Below, piece by piece: positions 5,343 through 20,514 of a stretch of 64,000 nt of DNA. The first letter of the stretch is position 1, and each line of letters starts with the position of its first letter. The notes beneath the pieces are model-generated. The model did not search any database. It was given only the letters and a program-made list of their open reading frames with translations, and was not told the DNA's origin. The position numbers and the translations under genes were made by a program. This stretch comes from Paenibacillus pasadenensis DSM 19293 (lineage in GTDB: Bacteria > Bacillota > Bacilli > Paenibacillales > Paenibacillaceae), in NCBI RefSeq assembly GCF_000422485.1, contig NZ_KE383850.1, forward strand, positions 62,001 through 126,000. The letters are read 5' to 3'.

Positions 5343-5363
5343 CAATGAAAGGAGAGAGGGTCT

Positions 5364-6524: not shown

Positions 6525-8891
6525 ATGCAGGGATTTTCATTCGGAAGCGGATTGACGCTGGTCCATCTGGAGGCGAGCTCGCCGAGGCTGTTCGCAGCGA
6601 CGGACCAGCTGGACTGCCGGTACGTGAGGGCCTACTTCAGGCAGCAGGGCACGCCGACGGCGCAGTACATCCAGGCCAGCCTGGCCGGATTGTACGAGAC
6701 GGCCGAGGATCTGCTCTCGCTCGGCAACGATGCCGTCGCCTTCCACGTCACTCCGGCCTCCTACCGTCTCTGCCGGGAGCTGAGCGGGACGCTCGGAGCC
6801 CTGGACGGCTCGCTCCGGATCTTCTGGTTCGGCGAATGGGCGGCCGAGCTGCCGGACGGCTCGCTGCCGGACGCGGTGGAGCGGCTCGTCCGCTCGGAGC
6901 CCGAACGCGTCCTGCACCGGCTGCTGGAGCCGGACGCGCCGAGCGAGGAAGCGGACGAGGCCGACGCGCTCGATGCCATCGCCGGGGTATGGGAGGATGC
7001 GGCGTCCATGCGGCAGGCTCCGCTGCTGGCGGTCAAGGCGGCGGATCGCCTCGGAGGCGATGCGGCCCCGGGCGGCATCCGGCTGCATTCGCCGGAGCGG
7101 CTGCTCCGCGACATTCGGCTCGCGGCCGCCGCTTCCCGCCAGATGCGGCCGGAGCTGCAGCTGCTCGGCTACGAGGCGGCGACTGCCGACGAGGCGCGGG
7201 AGGCCGCTGTCGCCGAAGCGCTGGAGGCGTGCCGAGCAAGCGCGACCTGGTCGGCGGAGCTGACGCTGGAGCGCTGGCGGAGAGGCGGCGCCGCCCGCCT
7301 CGCGGAGCTGGGCGCCAGCACGCTGACGCTGCGGCTGCCGGACAGCTTGGCCGAGGCGGAGCCTTTTCTGGCCGACATGCTGCGGGAGCTGAGGATCGCC
7401 TACCCGGACCTGCGGCTGCGCATCGTGCTGGAGACAGCGCCTGGCAGCACGGAGTCGGGGGCGCGGCGGGTCGCCGGGCAGCTCAGACAGTGCCTGGACG
7501 AAGGACTGCTCGCCCGGGATGCGATCGCTGCTGCCGTCCCGGCTGCCGCCGGCGCGCAAGCCCGCACGCTGCTGCCGTCTCCGCTGGAGGAGCTGGCGCG
7601 CGAGCGATTCGGCTCCAGCCCGGAGACGGCGCTTGTGAACGGCTTTCTCGCCTTCATGACCGGGCACTATCCGGCCCATGTCCTCGGGGGCGGCGCGAAG
7701 CATATCGGCGTCGGCGAGGACGGCTGGAGGCCCGAGACGATTCGACGCATAGGCGAGCACTCCGCCCTCAACAGCGCCGTCTTCTTCGAACAAAACCAAG
7801 CATGCGGGGAAGAAAACTCGAATTCTGTCGAGCCCCCGATCTTCTATGACCAGGACGGCAAGTGGAAGCGGCTCGACCGCCGCTTCGATCAGGCGAGCAG
7901 CGAGGCGGAGCGCGAGGGAACCTATCTCTCCAACGCCAACCGGCTGGAACGCTTGGGCGGCGGCCGCTGGCAGCTTCAGCTGAACGACTTCCTGCTGGCC
8001 GAGCCGATCTCGCTGCTGCGCCAGCGCTACGAGGAAGCCGCAGCCGAGGAAGGCGCCGATGCTTCTGCGGACTTCCGGCTGCTGGACATCCGCAGCGAGC
8101 GCGACCTCGACCGGTTCCTGGAGGACGTCGACGCGTTCAGCCGCACGGGACGCTTCGCGCATGGCTACGAGGTCCAGTCGTACGTAACGGACAGCTGCCG
8201 CTGGTCGGCGGCGGGCGCCTGCTCGGCCCGCAAGCTGCCGAGGCTGTTCGCGGACGGGGAGGGCGATGTCGCCGCCTGCCGGGGCTGCGCGCCGATCGGC
8301 CATCTGGACGATACGCCCGACCAGCTGCTCATGCAGGCCGCGGTGCTGTCCGATCAGGAGCAGCTGCTGCGCGGATGCGCTTCCTGCGAGATTCGATCGA
8401 CCTGCTCCCAGTGCGCGTTCCTGCCGTCCTACATGACGGCGGCGCAGTACTGCTCCATCCGCCGCAAGCATGTCATGCTGCATCGCTACATGCAGGTGGT
8501 CCAGCTCGTCAAGGGACTCCGCCGCCATACGCAGGCGCTGTCCGCGCTGGACGCCGAGACGCTGCTCGTCTCGCTGCCGACCTGCACGCATTACTACCCG
8601 CTGGCCGGAGGCGCCGAGCGTCCCTCGCTCGTCAGCGAGGCGGTCTTTCTCCTGACGACGGACGGCACGCCGGTGCTCTACCAGGCTGTCAGCCAAAAGG
8701 TGCTCAAGCTGAGCGAGCCGATGGCGCTGCTGCTCGAAGGGCTCATGGTCGGCGCGACCGAAGCCGAGCTGGCCGGCGCGCTGCAAGCGGCGTACGGCAC
8801 GGAGCCGTCCTACGCGGCGGCCGCCGTCAGCCAGGCGATCGAGCTGTTCAGCCGCCAAGGCTGCCTCAATCTGCCCGCACGGGCATCGTGA
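6525..8891 (+). CDS. RiPP maturation protein with Cys-rich SPASM-like region and C-terminal RRE (PqqD-like)
   Basis: 788 aa, ATG preceded by GAGGAGGAGA. The N-terminal ~400 residues look like an alpha/beta scaffold reminiscent of B12-binding/radical-SAM proteins, but no CxxxCxxC cluster motif exists anywhere. Residues ~555-650 hold a dense cysteine set (CRW, ACS, ACRGC, GCASC, TCSQC, YC) like a SPASM/twitch auxiliary Fe-S domain. The last ~100 residues (FLLTTDGTPVLYQAVSQKVLKL onward, with an LSEPMALLLEGL helix) match the PqqD-like RiPP recognition element fold, which binds leader peptides. It opens the cluster, 17 nt before the aminotransferase. I infer a leader-binding partner for the tailoring enzymes, analogous to the RRE protein of daptide clusters. 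Catalysis by itself is doubtful without the radical-SAM motif. Confidence 0.7.
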   Translation: MQGFSFGSGLTLVHLEASSPRLFAATDQLDCRYVRAYFRQQGTPTAQYIQASLAGLYETAEDLLSLGNDAVAFHVTPASYRLCRELSGTLGALDGSLRIFWFGEWAAELPDGSLPDAVERLVRSEPERVLHRLLEPDAPSEEADEADALDAIAGVWEDAASMRQAPLLAVKAADRLGGDAAPGGIRLHSPERLLRDIRLAAAASRQMRPELQLLGYEAATADEAREAAVAEALEACRASATWSAELTLERWRRGGAARLAELGASTLTLRLPDSLAEAEPFLADMLRELRIAYPDLRLRIVLETAPGSTESGARRVAGQLRQCLDEGLLARDAIAAAVPAAAGAQARTLLPSPLEELARERFGSSPETALVNGFLAFMTGHYPAHVLGGGAKHIGVGEDGWRPETIRRIGEHSALNSAVFFEQNQACGEENSNSVEPPIFYDQDGKWKRLDRRFDQASSEAEREGTYLSNANRLERLGGGRWQLQLNDFLLAEPISLLRQRYEEAAAEEGADASADFRLLDIRSERDLDRFLEDVDAFSRTGRFAHGYEVQSYVTDSCRWSAAGACSARKLPRLFADGEGDVAACRGCAPIGHLDDTPDQLLMQAAVLSDQEQLLRGCASCEIRSTCSQCAFLPSYMTAAQYCSIRRKHVMLHRYMQVVQLVKGLRRHTQALSALDAETLLVSLPTCTHYYPLAGGAERPSLVSEAVFLLTTDGTPVLYQAVSQKVLKLSEPMALLLEGLMVGATEAELAGALQAAYGTEPSYAAAAVSQAIELFSRQGCLNLPARAS

Positions 8892-8908
8892 ACGAAAGGA
8901 GATCCGCT

Positions 8909-10327
8909 ATGCTGACACCTGCACCTGCACCTGCATCTGCGCCCGAGTCTGCGCCGGCGCCTGCATCCGTCCCTGCGCCGGGAAGCGCCGCCGCTCCGGT
9001 GGCTCCGCTGCCGCCGCCCGGCTACCCGATCGTCCATCCGCTCAAGGATGTCCGTCTGGGCGAAGCCTTCCCCTCCTTCGCGGCCGGCGAGGGCATCTAC
9101 GTCCAGGACACGAACGGCAAGACGTACATCGACGGCATCAGCGGGCTCTGGAACGTCTCGCTCGGCTATCGGCATCCCGGCATCCGCCAGGCGATCGTCG
9201 ACCAGCTCGACCGGCTGCCTTATGTCAACCCTGTCGACGGAGCGAACCCGACGACGCTCGCCTTTGCCGAGACGCTGCTGCGCCTGACGCCGCCGGCGCT
9301 GGCCAAGGTCGCGTACACCTGCACCGGCTCGGAGTCGGTGGAGCTGGCAATCAAGCTCATCCGCAAGTTCCATCAGCTGTCGGGCCGTCCGGAACGCACG
9401 CTCATCGCGGTGCTCGACAAGTCCTATCACGGCACGTACTACGGCTCGATGAGCGCGAGCGGCATCGACCAGGAGATCTCGGAGAGCTACGGCCCCCGAG
9501 TGCCCGGCTTCCGGTTCCATCCGGTGCCGCTCGGCGACGACGGCAAGCCCGCCGTGCTGGAGGGCGAGCTGCTGGAGCGCCGGCTGGCGGAGCTGGAGCG
9601 GCTGTTCGAGGAAGAGGAGGGCCGCCTCGGCGGCATCATCCTCGAGCCGATCATCGGCTCGGGCGGCATCCTGCCGCTGCCGGACCGCTACCTGCGGCGG
9701 GTCCGCGAGCTGTGCGACCGCTCCGGCGCGCTGCTCGCCTTCGACGAGGTGGCGACGGGCATGGGACGCACGGGACGCATGTTCGCCTTCGAGCACAGCG
9801 GCGCGGCGCCGGACATCCTCTGCCTGTCGAAGGGCATCAACAGCGGCTATCTGCCGCTCGGCGCGACGCTGTTCAGCGACGCGATCTACCAGGCGTTCGC
9901 CCGGGCCGGATCGCATATCGAGCATCTGTCGACGCAGAACGGCAATCCGATCGCCTGCGCCGCCGGCCTCGCGACTGTTGAGGCGCTGGAGCGGCCCGGC
10001 CTGCTGGCGGAGGTGACCCGCAAGGGCGAGCTGCTCCGCCGCCTGCTGGAGGAAGCGCTGGCTGCGAATCCGATGTTCCTCGAGACGCGGGGCAAAGGGC
10101 TCATGATCGGCGTCGCCCTGACCTCGGACCGCTCGGCCCGGGCGCTGCTCGATCCGGACCGCTTGCGGGAGGTCGTCGCCCGGCTGAGGCAGCGCGGCCT
10201 GCTCGTCTACCCGATCCACACGCCCGGCGTGACGACCGGCTTCCACCTGTTCCCTCCGCTGATCATCGAGGACGGCGAGATCCGCAAGATCGTCCAGATC
10301 GTCGCCCGCTCGCTGGGAGGGAGGTGA
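8909..10327 (+). CDS. Class III (omega-type) PLP aminotransferase of the RiPP cluster
   Basis: 472 aa, ATG 8 nt after AAAGGAG. A ~40-residue Ala/Pro-rich N-terminal tail precedes a complete class III fold: GISGLWNVSLGYRHP, CTGSESVELAIKL (cofactor phosphate region), DKSYHGTYYG, LAFDEVATGMGRTG with Asp279 for the pyridine nitrogen, and LSKGINSGYLPLGA with Lys308 as the Schiff-base lysine. In daptide biosynthesis such an enzyme aminates the ketone left after oxidative decarboxylation of the C-terminal Thr. The adjacent precursors all ending in Thr make that role likely here. A metabolic diamine or beta-alanine aminotransferase is the alternative, but the position between the RRE protein and the peptide genes argues against it. 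The Pro/Ala tail is unusual and may tether partners. Confidence 0.85.
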   Translation: MLTPAPAPASAPESAPAPASVPAPGSAAAPVAPLPPPGYPIVHPLKDVRLGEAFPSFAAGEGIYVQDTNGKTYIDGISGLWNVSLGYRHPGIRQAIVDQLDRLPYVNPVDGANPTTLAFAETLLRLTPPALAKVAYTCTGSESVELAIKLIRKFHQLSGRPERTLIAVLDKSYHGTYYGSMSASGIDQEISESYGPRVPGFRFHPVPLGDDGKPAVLEGELLERRLAELERLFEEEEGRLGGIILEPIIGSGGILPLPDRYLRRVRELCDRSGALLAFDEVATGMGRTGRMFAFEHSGAAPDILCLSKGINSGYLPLGATLFSDAIYQAFARAGSHIEHLSTQNGNPIACAAGLATVEALERPGLLAEVTRKGELLRRLLEEALAANPMFLETRGKGLMIGVALTSDRSARALLDPDRLREVVARLRQRGLLVYPIHTPGVTTGFHLFPPLIIEDGEIRKIVQIVARSLGGR

Positions 10328-10335
10328 GAGCGAGC

Positions 10336-10467
10336 ATGAGTCCGGCCAAGCATGACCTGGCCTCGCCGCTGGAGCTGACTCCGGCCGAGCCGGAGCCGGA
10401 GGCCGCCGTCATCTCCCGGCTGCGGGCCTGCCTGCACCGCATCGGCAGCTTCCTTTCCTTCCGCTGA
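10336..10467 (+). CDS. Small peptide 1 (43 aa), candidate RiPP precursor with single Cys
   Basis: Begins 8 nt after the aminotransferase stop with an excellent ribosome site (GGGAGGGAGGTGAG). The first half is acidic and Pro-rich (ELTPAEPEPEAAV). The C-terminal part is basic and amphipathic (RLRACLHRIGSFLSFR), with one Cys and three Ser/Thr-type residues. It does not share the LQLEELEAV leader of the six downstream peptides and does not end in Thr. It could be the heterocyclisable substrate for the YcaO enzyme of this cluster, or an independent peptide. No homologue is recognised. Confidence 0.55.
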   Translation: MSPAKHDLASPLELTPAEPEPEAAVISRLRACLHRIGSFLSFR

Positions 10468-10509
10468 CCCTTTTCGCAACGGCGACATTCCGCTCAGGAG
10501 GTGATGACC

Positions 10510-10590
10510 GTGATGGCAATCTGGCCGCTTCCGTTCCCGAAGCTTCCGATCCCGCTTCCGTTCCCGATCGACCCGATCATCCTGTTCTAA
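10510..10590 (+). CDS. Small peptide 2 (26 aa), hydrophobic Pro-alternating peptide
   Basis: A consensus AGGAGG at 10496-10501 sits 8 nt before GTG 10510 (ATG 10513 and ATG 10504 are alternatives). The product is almost entirely Pro alternating with Leu/Phe/Ile (WPLPFPKLPIPLPFPIDP, then IILF), with no Cys, Ser or Thr. It has no leader of the type seen downstream. It could be a leaderless membrane-active peptide, a small regulatory peptide, or a decayed precursor. The strong ribosome site and its place in a string of peptide genes are the reasons for calling it. Confidence 0.5.
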   Translation: MMAIWPLPFPKLPIPLPFPIDPIILF

Positions 10591-10631
10591 TCGCTCCCGC
10601 TCCGCCCATTCCCTTTCAGGAGGTGAGATCC

Positions 10632-10742
10632 ATGAACGAAATCTCCCTGCAGCTCGAAGAGCTGGAAGCCGTCGCGGCTCCAGGCTGGCAAGATACTGTC
10701 GTCATCATCGCCATCGGACTCGGCATCGCGGCCCTCACCTAG
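10632..10742 (+). CDS. RiPP precursor A1 (36 aa, ends ALT)
   Basis: GGAGGTGAG precedes the ATG. The leader MNEISLQLEELEAVAAPG is shared with the next peptides. The core-like part WQDTVVIIAIGLGIAALT is hydrophobic and ends in Thr. It is the most divergent of the six Thr-terminated precursors (ALT in place of AFT). C-terminal Thr is the residue that daptide enzymes convert to dimethyl-propanediamine. The Ala-Pro boundary as leader cleavage site is inferred from conservation. Confidence 0.8.
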   Translation: MNEISLQLEELEAVAAPGWQDTVVIIAIGLGIAALT

Positions 10743-10787
10743 TTCCGATTCCCGCATAGCGATATTCCTTGAGAGGAGGTGAAATCC

Positions 10788-10907
10788 ATGAAAAACCTGT
10801 CCCTGCAGCTCGAAGAGCTCGAGGCGGTCGCCGCTCCGGTCGATTGGGGCGATGTCGCGATCGGCATCGGCATCGGCATCGGCATCGGCGCCATCGCCTT
10901 CACGTAA
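10788..10907 (+). CDS. RiPP precursor A2 (39 aa, Ile-Gly repeat core, ends AFT)
   Basis: AGGAGGTGAAATCC precedes the ATG. The leader MKNLSLQLEELEAVAAP is followed by VDWGDVA and an uninterrupted alternating stretch IGIGIGIGIGAIAFT. Codons ATC-GGC are nearly perfectly repeated at DNA level (10880-10897). The core has no Cys or Ser. The only hydroxyl residue is the terminal Thr, so a modification directed to that Thr is the simplest reading. Confidence 0.85.
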   Translation: MKNLSLQLEELEAVAAPVDWGDVAIGIGIGIGIGAIAFT

Positions 10908-10952
10908 TCCGCGTTTCCCTGCATCCGACATTACGCCAAGGAGGTGAAATCC

Positions 10953-11069
10953 ATGAAAAACCTGTCCCTGCAGCTCGAGGAGCTGGAAGCTGTTTCCGCT
11001 CCGGACTGGAAAGACGTTGCCGTCGGCATCGGTATCGGCATCGGCATCGGCGCGATCGCCTTCACGTAA
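10953..11069 (+). CDS. RiPP precursor A3 (38 aa, Ile-Gly repeat core, ends AFT)
   Basis: AAGGAGGTGAAATCC precedes the ATG. The leader MKNLSLQLEELEAVSAP is almost identical to A2. The core is DWKDVAVGIGIGIGIGAIAFT-like (Gly-Ile alternation, terminal Phe-Thr). Leader and spacer DNA are nearly identical to the preceding gene, indicating tandem duplication. Confidence 0.85.
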   Translation: MKNLSLQLEELEAVSAPDWKDVAVGIGIGIGIGAIAFT

Positions 11070-11110
11070 TCCATTTATCCCATCCACTTTCATCCAAGGA
11101 GGAATGATCC

Positions 11111-11248
11111 ATGAATCCATCCCTGAACCTGCATATGGAACTGCTCGAGGACGTATCCGCTCCGGGCAGCGGCAAGGACTTTGTCGAAGGCGTAGCGGTC
11201 GGCCTGGGCGCCGTCGCGGCTGTCACGGCGATCATCGCCTTCACGTAA
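11111..11248 (+). CDS. RiPP precursor B1 (45 aa, ends IIAFT)
   Basis: Second peptide type. The leader MNPSLNLHMELLEDVSAP differs from the A-type (LHMELLEDV instead of LQLEELEAV). It is followed by GSGKDFVEGVAVGLG, then AVAAVTAIIAFT. It keeps the SAP(G) boundary and the terminal Phe-Thr. Ribosome site is AAGGAGGAATGATCC. It differs from B2 (11452) at one residue, so the pair arose by recent duplication. Confidence 0.85.
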   Translation: MNPSLNLHMELLEDVSAPGSGKDFVEGVAVGLGAVAAVTAIIAFT

Positions 11249-11286
11249 GAGCGACCCCGTACCTTTTCGGAAAGGAGGCCAAAACC

Positions 11287-11412
11287 ATGAACCAAGCTCT
11301 GTCCCTCCAACTGGAGGAAATGGAAAGCATCGCAGCACCGGGCGACGGCGCGTACATCGCCGGCGTAGCGGTAGGCGTCGCGATCGGCATCGGCATCATC
11401 GCCTTCACGTAA
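11287..11412 (+). CDS. RiPP precursor A4 (41 aa, ends IIAFT)
   Basis: Ribosome site GAAAGGAGG. The leader MNQALSLQLEEMESIAAPG is A-type. The core contains DGAYIAGVAVGVAIGIGIIAFT-type alternation (no Cys; Thr only at the end). It is intermediate between the Gly-Ile peptides and the B-type, suggesting recombination between family members. Confidence 0.85.
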   Translation: MNQALSLQLEEMESIAAPGDGAYIAGVAVGVAIGIGIIAFT

Positions 11413-11451
11413 TCGAAGCTTTACTTAACCCTATCCAAGGAGGAATCATCC

Positions 11452-11589
11452 ATGAACCAATCGCTGAACCTGCACATGGAGCTGCTGGAGGACGTATCCG
11501 CTCCGGGCAGCGGCAAAGATTTCGTCGAAGGCGTAGCGGTCGGCCTGGGCGCCGTCGCAGCCGTCACGGCCATCATCGCCTTCACCTAA
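11452..11589 (+). CDS. RiPP precursor B2 (45 aa, ends IIAFT)
   Basis: Near-identical to B1 (Gln for Pro at residue 3; silent DNA changes elsewhere). Ribosome site AAGGAGGAATCATCC. It is the last gene of the precursor array, which runs A1-A2-A3-B1-A4-B2. The repeated A-B order at the end hints at a two-peptide product or paired duplication. Confidence 0.85.
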   Translation: MNQSLNLHMELLEDVSAPGSGKDFVEGVAVGLGAVAAVTAIIAFT

Positions 11590-11650
11590 GAACCGCTTCG
11601 GACGAACAATCGCCCGCAAGACCCGGCTGAGCCTCTCAGCCGCTTCAGAT

Positions 11651-11701
11651 GGGAGACTCTCTCCCCGCCCGGACGATGGAGCCGGGCGGGGGAGTCCTCC
11701 C
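11651..11701 (+). terminator. Strong GC hairpin after the precursor array
   Basis: Arms CTCCCCGCCCGG (11661-11672) and CCGGGCGGGGGAG (11682-11694) extend outward with GACT/AGTC and GGGAG/CTCCC. No T run follows directly (the first poly-T is at 11724), so it may be a partial terminator or 3' stabiliser that gives high precursor mRNA relative to the protease/exporter genes. Confidence 0.5.
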
Positions 11702-11786
11702 CATGACGAGCATCGCCGCATTATTTTTTTCCTGGATTAACGATGAAGCCTGACCCGGACATTATCCACGATTCGAGGTGAACGAG

Positions 11787-12989
11787 ATGTCGACCGCATC
11801 ATCAGCCTTCGATATCCATGAGATCGAAAACAACCTATTCCTGGTTCAACATAAATCGAGCCGCAAGTTCATCCGCATGGGGCCGCGCGAGACGGAGTAC
11901 CTGCAGTTCCTCGCCGCCGTCCCCGCCGCCGCCGCGGACCCGCCGCAGGGCGAAGCGGCCGCCCAAGCCGCCCCGGCCTACGCCGGCAGCCTGACGGAGG
12001 AGGAGCGGGCCTATCTCGCCGCCAAATTCGGCGAATGGGGCTTCCTCGACCCGGCCTTGCCGGAGGAGGAGGCGGCCGGAGCCCGCAAGTGGCGCTTCAA
12101 CTGGCGCATCGACGACCTGACGACGATCAAGTTTTTCTCCGTCGATCCCGACGCCTGGCTGGACCGGCGGCTGCCGCTCATCCGCCTGCTGCTCCACCCG
12201 GCGGCAATCGCCGCCTACGGGCTCGTCATGCTCGGCGCGTTCGCGCTGCTGCTGTCGCAGCCGCAGCTGACCGTCGGCCTCGACCCGTACGGCCTCGGCT
12301 GGGGCCAGTACGCGGCGATCTACGCGATGATCGTCCTGACGACGGTCATCCACGAGCTCGGCCACGGCATGACGTGCAAATATTACGGCGGGCGCGTGAA
12401 GCAGATGGGCGCGATGCTGTTCTACTTCAGCCCGGCGATGTTCTGCGACGTGAGCGACACGTATACGTTCCGGCGCCGGCGGCATAAGCTGGCCGTGCTG
12501 GCGGCGGGCGTGTTCAGCCAGTGGCTGCTCTCCTCGCTCGCCATCCTCGCCTACGGCGCGCTCCAAGCGGCCGGAGCGCAGCCGTCGGAGCTGCTGCTGT
12601 ACTACGCCTTCGCCAACCTCGGCATGAGCGTGCTCAACCTGCTGCCGCTCGTCAAGCTCGACGGCTACTGGATGCTGAGCCACGGCCTCGGCATCGCCAA
12701 CCTGCGCGCCAAGGCGTTCCGCTCCCTGTGGAGCCTGCTGCGGCTGACGAAATTCCGCGGGGAGGCTGCCCAAAGCGGCGCCAGCCGCCGGGAGCGCGCG
12801 ATCCTGCTCGCCTACGGCGCGGCGGCGACGGCGTTCACTCCTTGCTTCTGGCTGTGGGGCATCCTGCAGGTGCAGCAGCGGCTGCAAGCCTGGATCGGCG
12901 CCTTCAGCTTCCTCGTGACCGCCTGCATCGCGGTCGTCATGCTCTATCATATGGGCAAGTTTTTCCGGACGATGAGACAGCCGGCCTGA
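11787..12989 (+). CDS. Membrane M50 (site-2-type) zinc metallopeptidase of the RiPP cluster
   Basis: 400 aa; ATG chosen over GTG 11778 because GAGGTG lies 6 nt upstream of the ATG. Residues ~8-95 look PqqD-like (IHEIENNLFLVQHKSSRKFIRMG). Then come a membrane helix near 145-165, the zinc motif HELGH (His189, Glu190, His193), further helices, and LDGYW with Asp292 as the third zinc ligand. This is the M50 arrangement found beside many RiPP exporters. In daptide-type clusters an M50 protease is the presumed leader peptidase. The gene follows the six precursor genes and precedes the ABC exporter, so leader removal at the membrane is the likely job. Self-protection is a less likely alternative. 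Confidence 0.82.
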   Translation: MSTASSAFDIHEIENNLFLVQHKSSRKFIRMGPRETEYLQFLAAVPAAAADPPQGEAAAQAAPAYAGSLTEEERAYLAAKFGEWGFLDPALPEEEAAGARKWRFNWRIDDLTTIKFFSVDPDAWLDRRLPLIRLLLHPAAIAAYGLVMLGAFALLLSQPQLTVGLDPYGLGWGQYAAIYAMIVLTTVIHELGHGMTCKYYGGRVKQMGAMLFYFSPAMFCDVSDTYTFRRRRHKLAVLAAGVFSQWLLSSLAILAYGALQAAGAQPSELLLYYAFANLGMSVLNLLPLVKLDGYWMLSHGLGIANLRAKAFRSLWSLLRLTKFRGEAAQSGASRRERAILLAYGAAATAFTPCFWLWGILQVQQRLQAWIGAFSFLVTACIAVVMLYHMGKFFRTMRQPA

Positions 12990-13022
12990 CCGGCTCCAAA
13001 CCAAGACAAGGTGGGATATGAG

Positions 13023-13919
13023 ATGGGACTGGAAATCAATCATCTGATCAAGCGCTACGGAGGGAAGACGGTGCTGCACGGCATCTCGCTCGAGGCTCGC
13101 ACCGGCCAGGCGTTCGGCCTGCTCGGCGGCAACGGGGCGGGCAAGACGACGACGATCCGCTCCGTCCTCGGCCTGGTCGAGTACGAGTCCGGCTCCATCA
13201 CGTGGGACGGCAAGCCGATCAAGGACAACCGCCCGAGCATCGGCTATTTGCCGGAGGAGCGCGGCCTGTATCCGAAGGAGAAGGTCAGCGAGCAGCTCGT
13301 CTACTTCGCCATGCTGGAAGGGCTGTCCCGGCCGGCGGCGGTCAAGGCGATGCGCGGCTGGCTGGAGCGGCTCGGCATCGCCGAGCATGAGGGCAAGCGC
13401 GTCGAGCAGCTGTCCAAGGGCAATCAGCAAAAGGTGCAGATCATCTCGTCGCTCATCCACGATCCCGAGCTGGTCATCCTCGACGAGCCGTTCAGCGGCC
13501 TCGACCCGGTCAACTCCGACATGCTGGCCGCCGTCGTGCAGGACCAGCTGAAGCTCGGCAAGACGATGATCTTCTCCAGCCACCAGATGGGCCAGGTCGA
13601 GCGGTTCTGCGACCAGGTGTGCATCCTGAAGCGCGGCGAGATGACGGTCTCCGGCAAGCTCGCCGACATCAAGCGCTCCTACGGGCGCACGAGCCTGCTG
13701 CTGCGCAGCGAGCAGGACCTGACCCCGCATCTGGCGACGTTCGGCGTGCGGCCGGTCGAGGAGTCGCTCCACGAGTGGCAGGTCAAGGTCGACAGCGAGG
13801 AGCAGGCCCACGGCCTCATGCAGTCGATGGCGGGCGCGGGCGTGAAGCTGCTCAAGTTCGAGATCAAGGAGCCGACGCTCCATGAAATCTTCATTGAAAA
13901 GGTAGGCGAAGGAGCATGA
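13023..13919 (+). CDS. ABC exporter ATP-binding protein (NatA/CcmA-type)
   Basis: 298 aa. ATG 13023 is preferred to GTG 13011 because AAGGTGG lies 9 nt before it. Walker A is GGNGAGKTT, the signature is LSKGNQQKVQ, Walker B is LVILDEPFSGLDP, and the switch histidine is in FSSHQM. The C-terminal ~80 residues form the extra domain usual in NatA-like subunits. It overlaps the permease gene by 4 nt (ATGA). As part of the RiPP cluster it probably powers export of, or immunity to, the mature peptides. Confidence 0.88.
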   Translation: MGLEINHLIKRYGGKTVLHGISLEARTGQAFGLLGGNGAGKTTTIRSVLGLVEYESGSITWDGKPIKDNRPSIGYLPEERGLYPKEKVSEQLVYFAMLEGLSRPAAVKAMRGWLERLGIAEHEGKRVEQLSKGNQQKVQIISSLIHDPELVILDEPFSGLDPVNSDMLAAVVQDQLKLGKTMIFSSHQMGQVERFCDQVCILKRGEMTVSGKLADIKRSYGRTSLLLRSEQDLTPHLATFGVRPVEESLHEWQVKVDSEEQAHGLMQSMAGAGVKLLKFEIKEPTLHEIFIEKVGEGA

Positions 13920-15157
13920 AGCAGTTCGGCCTCGTATTCCAGTACTCGTTCCGGGAGCGTCTCCGCTCCAAAGCGTTCACGCTGACGATCTACATCGCAG
14001 CGGTGCTGCTGGCGGCGCTCATCTTCCTCCCCAAGCTGCTGCAATCGGACAGCGAATCGGTGGACGGCACGATCGCCGTCGTCAACAAGACGGACCTGGC
14101 GGTCACGTCGGAAAGCCTCCAGCAGGGCGTATCGCCCTCCTACGCCTGGAAGCTGATCGAGCCGTCCGGAGAAGCCGAAGCCCTGGCGCAGCTGGCCAAG
14201 GACGACGACAGCCTGCTCGGCCTGGCGGCGATCGAGGAGAAGAACGGCAAGCCGGTGCTCTCGCTTACGGTCAACAAGCTCGACGACGCGCCTTACGCCG
14301 AAGCGCTCGGCACCTACCTGCAAGGGGCGTACACGGCGAGCGAGCTCGCCAAGCTGACGCTGGACCCGGCGCAGAAGGAGCGCGTGACCGCGGCCCTGCA
14401 GCTCGACGTGCAGGAGCTGAAGGCGGGCAGCAAGTCCATGTTCTCCATGTACATGCCGATTTACTTGATCAGCTTCATGCTCTATCTGCTGCTCTACATG
14501 TGCGGAGGCAGCGTGGCTACCTCCGTCTCGGTCGAGAAGAGCTCGCGCGTCAAAGAGATCCTCATCACCAAGGTGAAGCCGGAGCAGCTGCTGTTCGGCA
14601 AGGTGCTCGGCGTCGGCCTCGCCGGCCTGCTGCAGTTCGTCCTGATCCTCGGCATCGGCTACGGCATGATCCTCGCCTCCGGCTCGGGCAGCGGGCTCAG
14701 CCTGTTCGGCTTCACGGTCGACTTCTCGATGCTGGATGCCAAGACGATGGTCCTGCTCGTGATGTTCTTCATCCTCGGCTACTTCTTCTACGCGGCGCTG
14801 TTCGCCGCCTGCGGCTCGCTCGTCAGCCGCAGCGAGGAGGTCAACGCCGTGACCTTGCCGGTCTCGCTCCTCATGATGGGCGGCTTCGTGGTCGCGCTGC
14901 TCTCGCTCGGCTCCCCGGAAGGCAGCCTCGCCGTCGTCAGCTCCTACATCCCGTTCGCGACGCCGTTCGCGATGTTCGTCCGGATCGGCATGTCCGACCC
15001 GTCCTGGACGGAGATTCTCGTGCCGACGCTCATCCTGCTTGCCTCCTCCGTCCTCGCCTGCTGGATTTCCGCCAAGGTCTATCAGGTCGGCGTGCTGCTC
15101 TACGGGCAAAAGCCGACGCCGAAGCTGATCTACAAAGCGCTTCGGTCGACGATGTAA
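13916..15157 (+). CDS. ABC exporter permease (NatB-type, ABC-2 family)
   Basis: 413 aa. One N-terminal membrane helix is followed by a large extracellular domain (residues ~45-180), then a five-helix block (YLISFMLYLLLYM ... FVLILGIGYGMILAS ... VLLVMFFILGYFFYAALFAACGS ... LLMMGGFVVALLSL ... ILLASSVLACWIS). This is the ABC-2/NatB layout. It is coupled to the ATPase by an ATGA overlap and followed 12 nt later by the SDR gene. Export of RiPP products or self-resistance is inferred from context. Confidence 0.87.
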   Translation: MKQFGLVFQYSFRERLRSKAFTLTIYIAAVLLAALIFLPKLLQSDSESVDGTIAVVNKTDLAVTSESLQQGVSPSYAWKLIEPSGEAEALAQLAKDDDSLLGLAAIEEKNGKPVLSLTVNKLDDAPYAEALGTYLQGAYTASELAKLTLDPAQKERVTAALQLDVQELKAGSKSMFSMYMPIYLISFMLYLLLYMCGGSVATSVSVEKSSRVKEILITKVKPEQLLFGKVLGVGLAGLLQFVLILGIGYGMILASGSGSGLSLFGFTVDFSMLDAKTMVLLVMFFILGYFFYAALFAACGSLVSRSEEVNAVTLPVSLLMMGGFVVALLSLGSPEGSLAVVSSYIPFATPFAMFVRIGMSDPSWTEILVPTLILLASSVLACWISAKVYQVGVLLYGQKPTPKLIYKALRSTM

Positions 15158-15169
15158 GGAGGGGCGCAC

Positions 15170-16018
15170 ATGGCGATAGACATCACCAAGGAGACGCCGT
15201 CCGTCCGCCCCGTCCCGATTCCGCCCCCGGCCGTCCGGGGGGAGGAGGCGGCGGCCCGGCCGCTGCTCGGCCAGTGGGCGATGGTGACCGGAGCCGGGCG
15301 CGGCATCGGCGAGGAGATCGCGCGGCAGTTCGCCGCCTCCGGCGCGTCGCTCGTCCTGACCGAGCTGCCGGATCGCTTGCCGCTGCTGGAGGAGAGCGCC
15401 GCCGCGCTGCGGCGGGAGCATGGCGTGCAGGCGAGCTGCCTGCCGCTCGACCTGCGCCGATTCGAGCAGATCGAGGCGGCGGCGGCGCGCATCGGCGGCG
15501 AGGTTGAAGCGGGCGTGGACTACCTCGTCAACAACGCCGGCGTCAACCTGCTGCAGCCGGCGCTGTCGCTCACGCAGGAGGAATGGGACTTTGTCGTGGA
15601 CATCAACCTCAAGGGCACGTTTTTCCTGACCCGCGAGGTGGCCAAGGCGATGGTCCGCAAGAAGCGCGGCTCGATCGTCATGATCGCCTCGCAGCACGGC
15701 GTCGTCGCCAACGAGAACCGCGCTCCCTACTGCGCCAGCAAGGCCGGACTCATCCATCTGTCCAAGGCGCTCGCGGTCGAATGGGCCAAATACGGCATCC
15801 GCGTCAACACGGTGTCGCCGACGTTCGTGCTGACCGAGGCGAGCGAGCCGCATCTGACCGACCCGCAGTTCCTGCGGGCCAACCTGCCCAAGCTGCCGCT
15901 GCGCAAGTTCGCGACGCCGGAGGACATCGCCCGCTCGGCGCTGTTCCTGGCGACGGACGCGGCCGGCATGATCACCGGGCACAATCTCGTCGTCGACGGC
16001 GGCTGGACCGCCATCTGA
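15170..16018 (+). CDS. Short-chain dehydrogenase/reductase, candidate Thr oxidative decarboxylase
   Basis: 282 aa, ATG after AAGGAGG. After a ~30-residue Pro-rich tail comes the classical SDR fold: TGAGRGIG (40-47) for NAD(P), NNAG (121-124), and catalytic Ser174, Tyr187 and Lys191 in the YCASK motif, ending DGGWTAI. In the daptide pathway the first step oxidises the hydroxyl of the C-terminal Thr, whose beta-keto acid loses CO2. An SDR is chemically suited to this, as in threonine 3-dehydrogenase chemistry, and no other dehydrogenase is present. From memory the characterised daptide system uses a different oxidoreductase family, so this would be a replacement. A generic metabolic SDR is the alternative. 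Confidence 0.75.
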   Translation: MAIDITKETPSVRPVPIPPPAVRGEEAAARPLLGQWAMVTGAGRGIGEEIARQFAASGASLVLTELPDRLPLLEESAAALRREHGVQASCLPLDLRRFEQIEAAAARIGGEVEAGVDYLVNNAGVNLLQPALSLTQEEWDFVVDINLKGTFFLTREVAKAMVRKKRGSIVMIASQHGVVANENRAPYCASKAGLIHLSKALAVEWAKYGIRVNTVSPTFVLTEASEPHLTDPQFLRANLPKLPLRKFATPEDIARSALFLATDAAGMITGHNLVVDGGWTAI

Positions 16019-16078
16019 CGGCGGCAGCGCCTGAGGCGGCTGCCCGACCGGGAGCTCCGTTTCGAGGGTCCGCCACGC

Positions 16079-16228
16079 ATAAGCAGCACCGCAAGCCGGA
16101 TACCCGGCGAAGCGCATCCATAAGCAGCACCCGAGCCGGATACCCGGCGAAGAGCATCCATAAGCAGCGCCGAGAGCCGGATACCCGGCGGCCAGACGGC
16201 GGCGCAGCGCCCGGCCGGATACCCGGCC
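16079..16228 (+). repeat. Four ~40-nt tandem repeats with GCCGGATACCCGGC hairpin
   Basis: The 14-mer GCCGGATACCCGGC (self-complementary GCCGG/CCGGC around ATAC) occurs at 16095, 16135, 16176 and 16214, with surrounding CATAAGCAGC and GAAGMGCATC sequence conserved in the first three units. It occupies most of the 334-nt gap between the SDR and methyltransferase genes. No other gene is visible there. Possibly an mRNA-stabilising or attenuating hairpin array. Confidence 0.85.
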
Positions 16229-16352
16229 CGATCAAGCATCGTCCGCAGCGGAGCCGGTTCCCGGGCCTTGGCGCCCGGCGGCTTCCGCGAGGGCGGACGG
16301 CGCTTCAAAGCGGCACTTATCCCTATCCATTCGACGCGAGGAGGCGGTTGCG

Positions 16353-17177
16353 ATGTATTTCGGCGTATTCAAGGACCTGAGGAATTTGGGGCTGCCCGGC
16401 AGCCAGGATTTCGACCTGTATGAAGGGTACTATTCCGAGTTCTACGAGGCGGTGGCGGGCCGCACGGACTACGACATCCCGCTGCTGCTGGAGCAGGCGG
16501 CGGCCCTTGCGGGCGACGGCAAGGTGCTGGAGCTGGCCTGCGGCTCGGGCCGCGTTCTGATGCATCTGGCCAATCGCGGCTTCCAGACGGTCGGCCTCGA
16601 CCTGTCGGAGGATATGCTCAAGCTGTGCCGCCGCAAGAGCGAGCAGCTGCCGCCGCGCCTGAAGAACCGCATCGAAGTGCGCCAAGGCGACATGACGAGC
16701 TTCGAGCTCGGCGAGAAGTTCCCGCTCATCATCCTGTCGGCGACGAGCATCAGCCTGCTGCGCCAGCAGGCCGACCTGGAGCGCATGCTGCAGACGGTGG
16801 AGCGCCATCTGGCGGACGGCGGACGTTTCGTCTTCGACTACGTGCTGTCCAACGACATCCACAACAGCCAGCTGCGCGGCGGCCGCGTCAACGGCGTCAC
16901 GCTCGATCTCGGTCCCGACCACAAGCAGTTCGTGCTCATGGGCGAGGAGGAGAATCTGGACGATCAGAGCGCGGTCATGAATTTTTACGCCGAGGTCATC
17001 CAGGGGGGCCAGACGAAGCGCTATTTCGGCTCCACGTTCAAAAAATTCTTTCCCGAGCCGGACATCTACGCCAGCATCGCCGCTTCCGGCCTGCGCATCG
17101 TGGACACCCGCACGTACAGCGTCGAGGGCGACGGCAATGTGCGCTGCCTGATTCTGGAGAAGGAGGGCGCCCGATGA
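16353..17177 (+). CDS. Class I SAM-dependent methyltransferase of the RiPP cluster
   Basis: 274 aa, ATG after GAGGAGG. Motif I VLELACGSGRVLMHLA, motif II VGLDLSEDMLKLC, and a downstream RQGDMTSFEL acidic strand give a complete AdoMet-binding Rossmann fold. The C-terminal half (FVLMGEEENLDDQSAVMNFYAE) is typical of small-molecule N- or O-methyltransferases. In daptide biosynthesis the last step dimethylates the new terminal amine, and this gene would supply it. It overlaps the E1-like TOMM gene by 4 nt (ATGA), which physically ties the presumed daptide steps to the YcaO module. Confidence 0.84.
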   Translation: MYFGVFKDLRNLGLPGSQDFDLYEGYYSEFYEAVAGRTDYDIPLLLEQAAALAGDGKVLELACGSGRVLMHLANRGFQTVGLDLSEDMLKLCRRKSEQLPPRLKNRIEVRQGDMTSFELGEKFPLIILSATSISLLRQQADLERMLQTVERHLADGGRFVFDYVLSNDIHNSQLRGGRVNGVTLDLGPDHKQFVLMGEEENLDDQSAVMNFYAEVIQGGQTKRYFGSTFKKFFPEPDIYASIAASGLRIVDTRTYSVEGDGNVRCLILEKEGAR

Positions 17178-17764
17178 ACGCCTTCGTCACCCTTCTGGGC
17201 GGCTGGGGAGAGAGCGGCGAGGCCGAGCCGATCGCCGCCGCCCTGCGCGGCCTCGGCGTCGAAGCGCGCGCCGCGTCGGCGTTCGGCGAGATCGATCCCG
17301 GCAGCGACCTCGTGCTCGTGCTCCAGGCGGAGCGCCAGGGCGCCGCGTTCAACGCCTACGCCCTGGAGCATGGGCTGACGTGGCTGCCGGTCGCGTTCTC
17401 GCATACGGTCGGCCGGCTCGGACCGATCGTCGTCCCCGGCGAGACGGCCTGCTACGAATGCCTGGAGCTGCGCGGACGCGCGAACGGCGTGCCGCCGCTT
17501 GCGCCGAAGCCGAGCCGGTTCGATCCGAGCTGGTCGATGGTGGCGTCGCTGGCCGTCATGGAGACGGTCAAATGGCTGTCCCGCTCCACGAACAGCTTCG
17601 CGCCGCTGTCGCTCGGCCATCAGGTCGAGTTCGACGCCTTTCACCTGCAGGGCGAGGTGAACCCGGTGTACCGGCTGCCCACCTGCCCGTCCTGCGGGCT
17701 GCGCCATCAGGCGCGGCTCGCGGCCCAGCCGTGGACCGAGGCCGGGCTGGTGCATCGGCCATGA
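17174..17764 (+). CDS. E1-like TOMM cyclodehydratase partner (leader-binding/docking protein)
   Basis: 196 aa. The GLTWLPVAFSHTVGRLGPIVVPGETACYECLELRGR stretch region and a later LPTCPSCGL give the CxxC...CxxC zinc tetrad of the TOMM E1/Ocin-ThiF-like family. The domain is short, covering the E1-like core without an obvious N-terminal winged-helix RRE. Its neighbour is a YcaO protein coupled by an ATGA overlap, the usual pairing in which this protein delivers the precursor peptide to YcaO. Because the RRE is missing here, leader recognition may be supplied by the 6525 gene product. Confidence 0.8.
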   Translation: MNAFVTLLGGWGESGEAEPIAAALRGLGVEARAASAFGEIDPGSDLVLVLQAERQGAAFNAYALEHGLTWLPVAFSHTVGRLGPIVVPGETACYECLELRGRANGVPPLAPKPSRFDPSWSMVASLAVMETVKWLSRSTNSFAPLSLGHQVEFDAFHLQGEVNPVYRLPTCPSCGLRHQARLAAQPWTEAGLVHRP

Positions 17765-19140
17765 GCCGCCAGCTGATCCGCCGCTGGAGCGGCGCGGCGG
17801 CGGCGTCCCCAAGCGTCGCCAGCCGGCCGCTCGGCCTTGCCCTCGGCCTGACGGAGCCGCTGGCGCGGGCGATCAGCCCGCAGGGCGGCATGGTGCGCAG
17901 GCTGATGAGCCTCAGCACCGATCCCGGCGATCCGGCGCTGTTCCTCAGCCTCGCCGCTCCGGCCGATCCGAAGGCGTTCGGCGGCCGCCAGCACGGGCTG
18001 ATCGACCGGTTCGCCAGCGGCATGGGCTTCACGCTGCAGGAAGCGAACGTCTCGGCGGTCGCCGAAGCGGTCGAGCGCTACTGCGCCGCTTACGTCATGC
18101 CGGACCGCACCGTGTTCGCCTCGTGGAGCGAGCTGCGGGCGGAGGCGCTGCATCCGCGCGAGCTGCCGCTGTACACGCCGGAGCAGCACGCGGCCTGGCA
18201 GTTCCCCTACCAGCCGTTCACGGAACAGGCGCGCATCCGCTGGGTGCCGGCCGTATCGCTCGCGACCGGCCGCGAGAAGCTTGTGCCCGCCGCGATCGCG
18301 TGGGACTCCTATGTGCCGCAGAGCGACGACGAAGCGGCGATCTGCTTCGGCCTGATGACCGGATCGGCCGCCGGCTCGACGCTCGAGCAGGCGATGATCG
18401 GCGGGCTGCTGGAAATCGTCGAGCGCGACGCGTTCATGATGATGTGGTACAACATGGCCTCGCTGCCGCGGCTCGACATCCGGGATCATCCGCTGGCGCG
18501 GCCGTTCCGCGAGCTGCTCGACGAGAGCCGCTTCGAGCTGTCGATCGTGGACACGACCGGCGACACCGGCATTCCGTCGTCGTTCGGCCTGCTCCGGACG
18601 AACGACGGCCGCGTCAGCTTCGGCGGCTCGGCGCGTCTGTCCATGGAGGAGGCAGTCGTCAAGACGCTGATGGAGATCAGCCAGCTGTTCATCGGCAACA
18701 AGGCGCAGATCTACGCCGAGGGACTGCCGTCGCTGCTGCCGCATCAAATTACCGACTACGGCCTGCGGCTTCCGTATTACGAGCAGCCGTTCGCCCATGA
18801 GGAGCTGGCCTTCACGGCGGCCTCGCCGCTGCTGCGTCCGGTGCCGCCGGCTCCGGCCGTCGCTTCCGCCTCCGAGGCGGAGCGGCTCGCCTATCTCGTC
18901 GAAGCCCTGCAGGCGCGCGGCCTGGAGCCGCTCTGCGTCGACGTCACGACCGACGACGTGCGCGAGCTCGGGCTGCATGTCGTCAAGATGATCGTGCCCG
19001 GCACGATCCAGCTGCCGCGCAGCGAGCGCGAGCGGCTGATCGCCAGCCGCCGCATCTACGACGTGCCGGTGGAGCTCGGCTGGCGCAGCTCGCCGATCGC
19101 TCCTTCCGAGCTGAACGTCAGCCCGCATCCTTTTCCTTGA
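17761..19140 (+). CDS. YcaO-domain protein (ATP-dependent peptide backbone-modifying enzyme)
   Basis: 459 aa. ATP/Mg-binding glutamates are visible in EANVSAVAEAVERYC (Glu94, Glu102, Glu105) and GGLLEIVERDAF (Glu218, Glu221). The chain ends in a Pro-rich PHPFP tail, as in azoline-forming YcaO cyclodehydratases. YcaO enzymes phosphorylate a backbone amide oxygen, allowing attack by Cys/Ser/Thr side chains (azolines), sulfide (thioamides) or an amine (amidines). With an E1-like partner and a SagB-like protein, azol(in)e formation is the default reading. The Thr-ending precursors, however, offer almost no heterocyclisable residues, so the true substrate or chemistry is open. Confidence 0.88.
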   Translation: MSRQLIRRWSGAAAASPSVASRPLGLALGLTEPLARAISPQGGMVRRLMSLSTDPGDPALFLSLAAPADPKAFGGRQHGLIDRFASGMGFTLQEANVSAVAEAVERYCAAYVMPDRTVFASWSELRAEALHPRELPLYTPEQHAAWQFPYQPFTEQARIRWVPAVSLATGREKLVPAAIAWDSYVPQSDDEAAICFGLMTGSAAGSTLEQAMIGGLLEIVERDAFMMMWYNMASLPRLDIRDHPLARPFRELLDESRFELSIVDTTGDTGIPSSFGLLRTNDGRVSFGGSARLSMEEAVVKTLMEISQLFIGNKAQIYAEGLPSLLPHQITDYGLRLPYYEQPFAHEELAFTAASPLLRPVPPAPAVASASEAERLAYLVEALQARGLEPLCVDVTTDDVRELGLHVVKMIVPGTIQLPRSERERLIASRRIYDVPVELGWRSSPIAPSELNVSPHPFP

Positions 19141-19210
19141 TTGGCCTCGACCGGCGGCCTCGCGCCTCCCGCGCCTCGGCCGCACCATCAACCCATAAGG
19201 GCGTGATTCC

Positions 19211-19981
19211 ATGCAATCCAAGTTCATCGACTGGCGCGCCGACGCGCTCGCCGGCGAAGATTCTCTGTCCCTGACGTATCACCTCAACTCCAGCCATTAT
19301 CCCCAGCTCGAGGTGCTCACCCGCTCCCGGATGAAAATGCTGCGCAAGCTGTTCGCGCAGATGAACGCTCCCGCCACGCCCGCCAAGCGGTATTTCTCCG
19401 CGCCGCATTCCCGGCTGGCGGACGATCCGGAGGCGGAGGCAGAGGGCGGCCTGAACGACCATCCCGCGCTGCGCCGGCTGCTGGTCCGCCTGCGCCGCCA
19501 GCAGCCGCAGACGGCTCCGTTCGCGGACTTCGGTCCGCTCGAGGAGCTCGGCGGGGCGGCGCTCGACTCGCCGGAGCTGTACATCCTCTCGCGCAGCTTG
19601 GCGACGAAGCGGCTGGAGCTGTTCTACTTTCATCCGCACGGCGACTGCCTGCAGGAGCTCGGCGCTCCGGACGAGGAGCGCTGCTCCGCGCTGTTCGATC
19701 CGGCGGTGAATGCCGGTCCGCTGCAGGGCGCGATTTTCGTCGCCGCCAACCTGCATCGGTCGCTGCAGCTGTTCGGCGAGCGCGGCTACCGGCTGAGCCT
19801 GCTCGAAGGGGGCCGCATCACGGAAAGGCTGGCCGCCTGCTCGGCCGGCAGCGGGCTCAGGCTGCAGCCGGTGCTCGGCTTTTACGACAGCCGCGTGCAT
19901 CAGCTGCTCGGGCTTGACGGCCAGTACGAGGTCGCGCTGAGCTGCCTGCTGCTGCAGGCCGAGCCGGAGGCTTCCCGATGA
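19211..19981 (+). CDS. SagB-like nitroreductase-family protein (divergent TOMM dehydrogenase)
   Basis: 256 aa. The opening LTYHLNSSHYP corresponds to the SagB start. The C-terminal half (FGERGYRLSLLEGGRITERLA ... VLGFYDSRVHQLLGLDGQYEVALSCLLL) matches the nitroreductase/SagB dimer and FMN-binding core. The usual arginine-rich FMN motif near the N-terminus (RRSxR-type) is not evident; the equivalent region reads PAKRYFSAPHSR. SagB proteins oxidise azolines to azoles. This copy may be flavin-poor or have changed function. It follows ycaO after 70 nt and overlaps the regulator gene by 4 nt. Confidence 0.68.
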   Translation: MQSKFIDWRADALAGEDSLSLTYHLNSSHYPQLEVLTRSRMKMLRKLFAQMNAPATPAKRYFSAPHSRLADDPEAEAEGGLNDHPALRRLLVRLRRQQPQTAPFADFGPLEELGGAALDSPELYILSRSLATKRLELFYFHPHGDCLQELGAPDEERCSALFDPAVNAGPLQGAIFVAANLHRSLQLFGERGYRLSLLEGGRITERLAACSAGSGLRLQPVLGFYDSRVHQLLGLDGQYEVALSCLLLQAEPEASR

Positions 19982-20514
19982 CAGACCGCACCGAGCCGCT
20001 CCCCCTTCTCCCGGGGGAGCTGCCGCTGCGCGTCTCGCCGGATAGCGCGCAGCCGCTATACGCCCAGCTGGAGGCTCAGCTGCGCGAGCTGATCCACAGC
20101 GGGGCGCTGCCGGAGGATATGCAGCTGCCCAGCTTGCGGGATCTCGCCTCGAAATTGGGCTGCAGCCTCATCACTGTTCGCCGCGTCTACCTGGATCTGG
20201 AGCGGGAAGGGCTGCTGACGATCTCCAAAGGCATCGGCACCTTCGTCTGCCGCAGCGGCTCGGAGCGCTCCGCGCGGCGGTCATGGTCGCGGGCGCTCGT
20301 GCAGGAGTCGTTCCGCAGCGCGGTCGCGACCGGCTCGAAGTATGGCCTGAAGCCGGACGAGATGCGGCTGCTGCTCGAGGAGCAGCTCGAGAGATGCGCC
20401 TCGGGACCTGCGCCGGATCCGGGACCTGCGGGCGGCTCGGGCGGAGGCCAGCCGCGTGACGAGCGCCCGCTCGGCCCGCGTCCCCGCGACGGCGAGCCGA
20501 GCGGCGGTCCGTAA
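19978..20514 (+). CDS. GntR-family (YtrA-like) transcriptional regulator
   Basis: 178 aa, ATGA overlap with the SagB-like gene. Residues ~20-85 are a GntR winged helix: PLYAQLEAQLRELIHSG, LPSLRDLASKLGCSLITVRRVYLDLEREGLL, ISKGIGTFV. The short C-terminal part is helical (residues 95-145) and ends in a Gly/Pro-rich tail, fitting the YtrA subgroup, which often controls ABC exporter operons and responds to envelope-active compounds. As the last gene of the RiPP cluster it probably autoregulates the operon. A terminator follows. Confidence 0.82.
   Translation: MTDRTEPLPLLPGELPLRVSPDSAQPLYAQLEAQLRELIHSGALPEDMQLPSLRDLASKLGCSLITVRRVYLDLEREGLLTISKGIGTFVCRSGSERSARRSWSRALVQESFRSAVATGSKYGLKPDEMRLLLEEQLERCASGPAPDPGPAGGSGGGQPRDERPLGPRPRDGEPSGGP

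Follow-up and report, generated by a model that had tools for sequence, protein, structure and literature searches.

A daptide cluster of the Bacillota type in Paenibacillus pasadenensis carries an E1-like/YcaO/SagB-like trio and may produce a C-terminal imidazoline

Daptides are small peptides that undergo chemical remodelling of their final residue. In a 64,000-nucleotide stretch of the Paenibacillus pasadenensis DSM 19293 genome (contig NZ_KE383850.1, positions 62,001 to 126,000; hereafter, the window), a block of genes at 6525-20514, all on the plus strand and arranged as in Table 1, is identified by homology as a daptide cluster of the Bacillota type. The daptide assignment, which an earlier reading of the same DNA (the original prediction) had also made, is well supported because the precursors, the aminotransferase, the methyltransferase and the protease pass the NCBIfam daptide cut-offs. 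The block further encodes a trio of an E1-like protein, a YcaO protein and a SagB-like protein, and we consider it somewhat probable (about 0.55), from sequence and by analogy, that this daptide pathway of the Bacillota type ends in a peptide with a C-terminal imidazoline and that the SagB-like protein acts in it as a non-oxidising subunit. More tentatively, the trio may be a three-protein C-terminal imidazoline synthetase, in which an E1-like/YcaO pair of the type found in thiazole/oxazole-modified microcin (TOMM) pathways works at the peptide end together with a retained SagB that has lost its flavin. The present analysis adds the conservation of the trio, the [LF]T ends of precursors lacking core Cys, and the loss of catalytic residues in SagB.

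The trio is a constant part of the related clusters. A search of 394 genomes of the family with the DapP model matched 111, of which 11, including the genome of the window, exceeded the cut-off; the 20 regions compared comprised those of the ten other genomes above the cut-off, that of genome G251 (295.9 against 300 bits) and nine weaker ones, the 90 remaining weaker matches being left out. With the window proteins as tblastn queries, the E1-like, YcaO and SagB-like genes were found together in all ten clusters and in G251 (11 of 11), or in 12 of 12 when the window is included, which bears out the earlier proposal that the YcaO module and the daptide genes belong to one pathway. The 4-nucleotide overlap of dapM with the E1-like gene, on which that proposal had rested, is real (ATGA at 17174), and overlaps of the same length join the ABC pair (13916), the E1-like and YcaO genes (17761) and the SagB-like and GntR genes (19978). 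In one cluster that has the trio (L036), dapB and dapD were not seen because the contig begins inside the cluster. A thirteenth cluster (L097), frameshifted in places, came from a scan of the order with the YcaO profile (matches at E 1e-80 in 10 of 296 genomes). It stands outside the count of 12 because the trio itself was the bait. The 12 clusters are not 12 independent events, because they come from one family and include several close relatives. An enzyme set conserved without precursors, which the original prediction had named as telling against it, was not seen among the clusters examined.

As regards the weaker regions, one in the same genus (L047, genome G291) is a decayed cluster: fragments of dapB, dapP and the ATPase gene can be recognized, as can a sagB-like gene and gntR, and no YcaO match was obtained. 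The remaining eight gave no tblastn match to DapB or DapM; scattered matches there concerned the aminotransferase (L043 and L044), a short E1-like protein and an SDR (L043), and a YcaO with 26% identity (L050).

The precursor peptides bear on where the YcaO acts. As originally predicted, the window holds six short precursors (10632-11589), and all of them show the ELExMEAP-like daptide leader, end in Thr and exceed the NF041808 cut-off of 25 bits (28.3-40.4 bits). For comparison, we collected 78 precursors, of which 53 are distinct, across 13 clusters by means of a script that relied on the leader motif and a length of 30-60 residues and did not demand a final Thr; the core was set to start after the AP or TP of the leader, as inferred from the daptide leader motif. 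All 78 have a final Thr, preceded by Leu in 41 and Phe in 37, and Cys is absent from all 78 cores. For 26 of them, which come from 10 of the 13 clusters, the core contains no Ser, Thr or Cys other than the final Thr. One precursor in three thus gives the YcaO no conventional substrate except its terminal residue, and the Cys/Ser/Thr-rich core of the TOMM product class was not found. Because every precursor ends in [LF]T, no core contains Cys and these 26 offer the last Thr only, the modified terminus is the most likely site of YcaO action. A penultimate Leu or Phe was rejected as a strict marker of imidazoline daptides. It fits the 78 precursors of the trio clusters, the actinobacterial locus L111, where a YcaO lies nearby and LT ends occur four times, and L061, L063 and L064, which end in AT or TT and have no YcaO match in the locus, but it is contradicted by L112, which ends in LT in a genome without a YcaO match, and by L062 and L059, which have a YcaO and end in AT and VT, respectively.

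The E1-like/YcaO pair shows the combination that characterizes a TOMM cyclodehydratase, namely, a SagD-type YcaO with a PxPxP end and an E1-like partner. The PxPxP end and two further conserved motifs, which we take to be those of the ATP site, are intact in 12 of 12 YcaOs, and the four-Cys metal site of the E1-like protein (C..C and C..CG) is likewise present in 12 of 12, with no N-terminal RRE recognised in that protein. Compared against solved structures, the E1-like profile found TruD, MusD, LynD and MccB, and the YcaO profile placed TruD, MusD and LynD first; because both profiles find these three proteins, the pair resembles, at the level of sequence profiles, a cyanobactin-type heterocyclase split in two, the E1-like portion being short.

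The third member of the trio appears degenerate. All 12 SagB-like proteins match TIGR03605, the window protein below the family cut-off (Table 1), and GERGYR and a C-terminal FYD...LDG region are conserved. In the central helix, the columns that contain Lys-Tyr in McbC, BmdC and three plasmid-borne SagBs (presumably K201/Y202 of McbC, in agreement with the residue numbering) contain Leu-Phe in eight and Leu-Leu in four of the daptide-linked proteins, the pair thus being absent from all 12; in the nitroreductase 3eo7, these columns read Arg-Tyr and Gln-Tyr. PSGG, found in all three plasmid SagBs, and RRSxR, found in two of these and as RKSxR in the third, are both presumably flavin contacts, and neither occurs in any of the 12. 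When the requirement is relaxed to [KR]Y followed further on by an aromatic residue, two of the 12 match, near residue 60 and outside the Lys-Tyr columns. The Lys-Tyr motif is reported to be important for TOMM dehydrogenases (PMC11055893), and in microcin B17 synthetase an E1-like protein, a YcaO and an oxidase are united in one complex (PMC10634744). Because the degenerate protein is retained in 12 of 12 clusters, as a component of such a complex would be, we consider a structural role within the YcaO complex more likely than an oxidase activity that makes an imidazole. On the catalytic residues of SagB in daptides, we found no literature in a search that left supplements and most subscription journals outside.

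From the observed gene content, homology, conservation and residue losses, we infer the following chemical steps and the role of the SagB-like protein. The RRE domains of DapB, and perhaps of DapP, would hold the leader while DapB and the SDR oxidise the Thr at the C-terminus; loss of CO2 would then leave aminoacetone. DapD would transaminate the aminoacetone to diaminopropane, and DapM would add one methyl. The E1-like protein and the YcaO would then spend ATP, and the methylated amine would close a dimethylimidazoline by attacking the carbonyl of the neighbouring Leu or Phe, after which DapP would cut off the leader and the ABC pair would export the peptide. The SagB-like protein would have a structural part in the YcaO complex, and the ring would not be oxidised to imidazole.

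Several of these steps have been reconstituted for actinobacterial daptide pathways by Dommaraju et al. 2025 (PMC12338566 / PMC12670281), who describe a decarboxylation to aminoacetone that depends on NAD, a Lys-dependent transamination, a methylation step and a ring closure by the YcaO, in which the mono-methylated amine reacts with the preceding carbonyl and yields a dimethylimidazoline (Diz) of mass M-49; TfDapY and SaDapY form Diz in this way at a Leu-Thr terminus (PMC12338566). The tfDap and saDap clusters share with the window Thr-ended precursors, DapD, DapM, DapP, a putative DapB, an exporter and a PxPxP YcaO, but they are actinobacterial, use a PF00465-type decarboxylase and have a YcaO of a divergent group. 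The words SagB, imidazole, Bacillota and E1-like do not occur in the main text of that study (PMC12670281). Ren et al. 2023 (PMC10036551) assign a PF13561 oxidoreductase to the daptide clusters of Bacillota, in place of the PF00465 one of Actinomycetota, and a shorter protease; they name YcaO subgroups, and YcaO and azoline dehydrogenase (TIGR03605) appear in the Fig. 1 legend as common daptide-cluster hits. The window agrees with these Bacillota clusters, of which hominicin is a known product, in its PF13561 decarboxylase, short protease and several precursors, whereas the passages of Ren et al. considered here do not describe the trio as a unit or discuss its conservation in Paenibacillaceae or the residue state of SagB. 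The claim that no daptide-YcaO hybrid had been described is accordingly mistaken, because daptide YcaOs are covered as a genomic class by Ren et al. and biochemically, for actinobacterial DapY, by Dommaraju et al. The expectation of dimethyl-propanediamine (Dmp) termini plus separate YcaO heterocycles is also improbable, because the characterised DapYs divert the mono-methylated amine from the Dmp route and the cores are poor in other substrates. With TOMM synthetases (McbBCD of microcin B17, TruD/LynD of cyanobactins and TclI/TclJ/TclN of micrococcin), the window shares the set of E1-like, YcaO and SagB-type proteins; those enzymes act on Cys, Ser and Thr within the core and have a catalytic oxidase, whereas the window cores lack Cys and its SagB is degenerate.

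Some observations weigh against an imidazoline-forming trio. The window YcaO scores 192 bits against TOMM cyclodehydratases and only 53 and 35 bits against two actinobacterial daptide-linked YcaOs; the characterised DapYs work without an E1 or a SagB, none being described by their authors (PMC12670281); all clusters with the trio come from a single bacterial family; and 52 of the 78 cores contain internal Ser or Thr, in three of the 13 clusters every core, which would allow internal azolines. With respect to the scores, the reverse search with the actinobacterial L124 YcaO found Paenibacillaceae YcaOs at up to 63 bits and TOMM proteins at up to 55.5. A tree was built from 24 YcaOs after six of 30 collected rows had been excluded (five as badly delimited or off-family and one as a near copy). 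There, the Paenibacillaceae daptide YcaOs formed one supported group and the two actinobacterial daptide-linked YcaOs, which stand in for TfDapY and SaDapY, another, and branches were long. Independent recruitment of the Bacillota YcaO, although suggested by the scores, is not established, since a common clade of the two groups was neither supported nor rejected (p-AU 0.393).

If the internal Ser and Thr were the substrates, the trio would make ordinary oxazolines in some precursors and the termini would become Dmp, as the TOMM SagD-type YcaO, above its cut-off, would permit; we regard this as unlikely, because the internal residues occupy no fixed place whereas the last two are fixed as [LF]T, and the 26 cores without internal Ser or Thr, like the general lack of Cys, speak against it. 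A similarly low probability attaches to the idea that the SagB-like protein still works as a flavin oxidase, its catalytic residues being altered, and that the product is an aromatic C-terminal dimethylimidazole. Retention of the gene and of its conserved regions in 12 clusters agrees with such activity, the protein could be an enzyme that uses other residues, and Ren et al. 2023 count it as an azoline dehydrogenase (PMC10036551); the loss of the Lys-Tyr pair, PSGG and RRSxR from all 12 and the score of the window protein argue for a non-oxidising role. Least probable, in our judgement, is another backbone change near the terminus, either an amidine formed with an outside amine or an imidazoline formed from the unmethylated amine (Miz). 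YcaO enzymes can also take exogenous nucleophiles, and DapY yields Miz in vitro when the methyltransferase is omitted (PMC12338566); here, however, DapM is present and above its family cut-off, and PxPxP together with membership in the TOMM SagD family points to cyclodehydration with an internal nucleophile.

Most gene labels of the original prediction are confirmed by family scores above the cut-offs, those of the RRE-bearing protein and the SagB-like protein being the weaker ones (Table 1). Both the aminotransferase (NF041821) and the methyltransferase (NF041820) belong to the daptide families. DapD has SKGxNSG in 11 of 11 proteins, DapP has HExxH in 12 of 12, and the SDR has TGAxRGIG and YxASK in 12 of 12; with its PF13561 match and intact motifs, the SDR corresponds by sequence to the oxidative decarboxylase of Bacillota daptides. 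The DapB-like protein is a predicted decarboxylase partner, with an unassigned N-terminal part, a cysteine-rich stretch and a putative C-terminal RRE; its profile meets the TfuB1 RRE through the C-terminal part in a weak match (E 0.023). At 788 residues, it far exceeds the 331-position daptide_RRE model. The conserved cysteine cluster, whose pattern GC..C......C..C.FLP is matched by 9 of 11 proteins, resembles a SPASM domain, and the radical-SAM motif CxxxCxxC was found in none of the 11 DapB-like proteins, which perhaps descend from a degenerate radical-SAM ancestor.

Table 1. Genes of the daptide block in the window, with their family matches
Feature	Coordinates	Strand	Family match
DapB-like protein, 788 aa	6525..8891	+	NF041823 46.7 bits (cut-off 150); putative C-terminal RRE (PqqD-like)
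DapD, class III aminotransferase	8909..10327	+	NF041821 515.7 bits (cut-off 450)
Daptide precursor 1, ends ALT	10632..10742	+	NF041808 28.3 bits
Daptide precursor 2, ends AFT	10788..10907	+	NF041808 38.2 bits
Daptide precursor 3, ends AFT	10953..11069	+	NF041808 38.7 bits
Daptide precursor 4, ends AFT	11111..11248	+	NF041808 36.4 bits
Daptide precursor 5, ends AFT	11287..11412	+	NF041808 40.4 bits
Daptide precursor 6, ends AFT	11452..11589	+	NF041808 36.4 bits
DapP, intramembrane metalloprotease (M50), predicted leader peptidase	11787..12989	+	NF041824 436.5 bits (cut-off 300)
ABC exporter ATPase	13023..13919	+	PF00005, PF13732
ABC exporter permease	13916..15157	+	PF12698
SDR, predicted oxidative decarboxylase (Bacillota DapC class)	15170..16018	+	PF13561 217 bits
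DapM, SAM methyltransferase	16353..17177	+	NF041820 254.9 bits (cut-off 175)
E1-like (ThiF-type) protein, 196 aa	17174..17764	+	TIGR03882 48.1 bits (cut-off 36.9)
YcaO cyclodehydratase, C-terminal PHPFP	17761..19140	+	TIGR03604 277.4 bits (cut-off 219.25)
SagB-like protein, degenerate, predicted non-oxidising subunit	19211..19981	+	TIGR03605 46.9 bits (cut-off 78.4)
GntR-type regulator, last gene of block	19978..20514	+	HTH matches to GntR-type models, all under cut-off

Beyond the family, the class and phylum samples yielded above the cut-off only the genome of the window and one relative of the same family (2 of 398 each); the methyltransferase was matched at E 1e-30 in 46 of 398 class genomes, 44 of them below the cut-off. 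Clusters of the Bacillus cereus type were not found in two genera (0 of 26 and 0 of 5), where the controls were likewise without a match, and a plasmid search with DapB gave no match. In the actinobacterial sample, DapB exceeded the cut-off in 3 of 396 genomes, one of which (L111/L124) encodes a PxPxP YcaO at a distance of about 4 kb from the protease gene. Massilia sp. ST3 carries a Pseudomonadota daptide locus (L059, 4525-13817) with an SDR 45% identical to that of the window, two precursors that end in VT and a different type of YcaO, under the SagD cut-off; as an example of a daptide core without YcaO, this locus was ruled out by that divergent YcaO (4525-5847).

The block also contains smaller elements. 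A Pro-rich open reading frame of 25 codons without Ser, Thr or Cys lies 5' of the first precursor (10513-10590) behind a strong ribosome-binding site; it has one relative in L035 (27 residues) and four in L031 (20-31 residues), which are interleaved with the precursors and most of which end in IDPI..LF. Aligned codons of the window and L035 versions differ 2, 0 and 5 times at codon positions 1, 2 and 3. Directly 3' of dapD, another reading frame with a ribosome-binding site, 32-43 residues long, occupies the same place in the window (10336-10467), L031-L033, L035 and L038-L040, with no likeness of sequence outside the genus; between the window and L035, five of the changed codons are non-synonymous and two synonymous, and there is no sign of protein conservation. 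An NCBIfam search at E 10 gave no match for either small reading frame (10336-10467; 10504-10590). Between the SDR gene and dapM, a tandem repeat of 39-40 bp that contains the palindrome-like GCCGGATACCCGGC occurs in 2.8 copies in the window (16078-16190) and 3.8 in L035 (13725-13878). The GntR-type regulator (19978-20514) closes the block and had not been named in the original prediction; a related gene lies 3' of sagB in five or six of the 11 complete neighbour clusters (tblastn; L031, L035 and L037-L040, with L035 from the same genus).

The terminus can be read by mass spectrometry, with M-49 for an imidazoline (from Dommaraju et al. 2025), M-51 for an imidazole and M-17 for Dmp (the latter two computed from masses). 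If the proposed pathway is correct, C-terminal imidazoline formation would extend from the actinobacterial YcaOs to a differently built machine in Bacillota, and the SagB-like protein would be a natural case of an oxidase from ribosomally synthesized and post-translationally modified peptide pathways that has become a pseudoenzyme yet persists in all of the clusters found.

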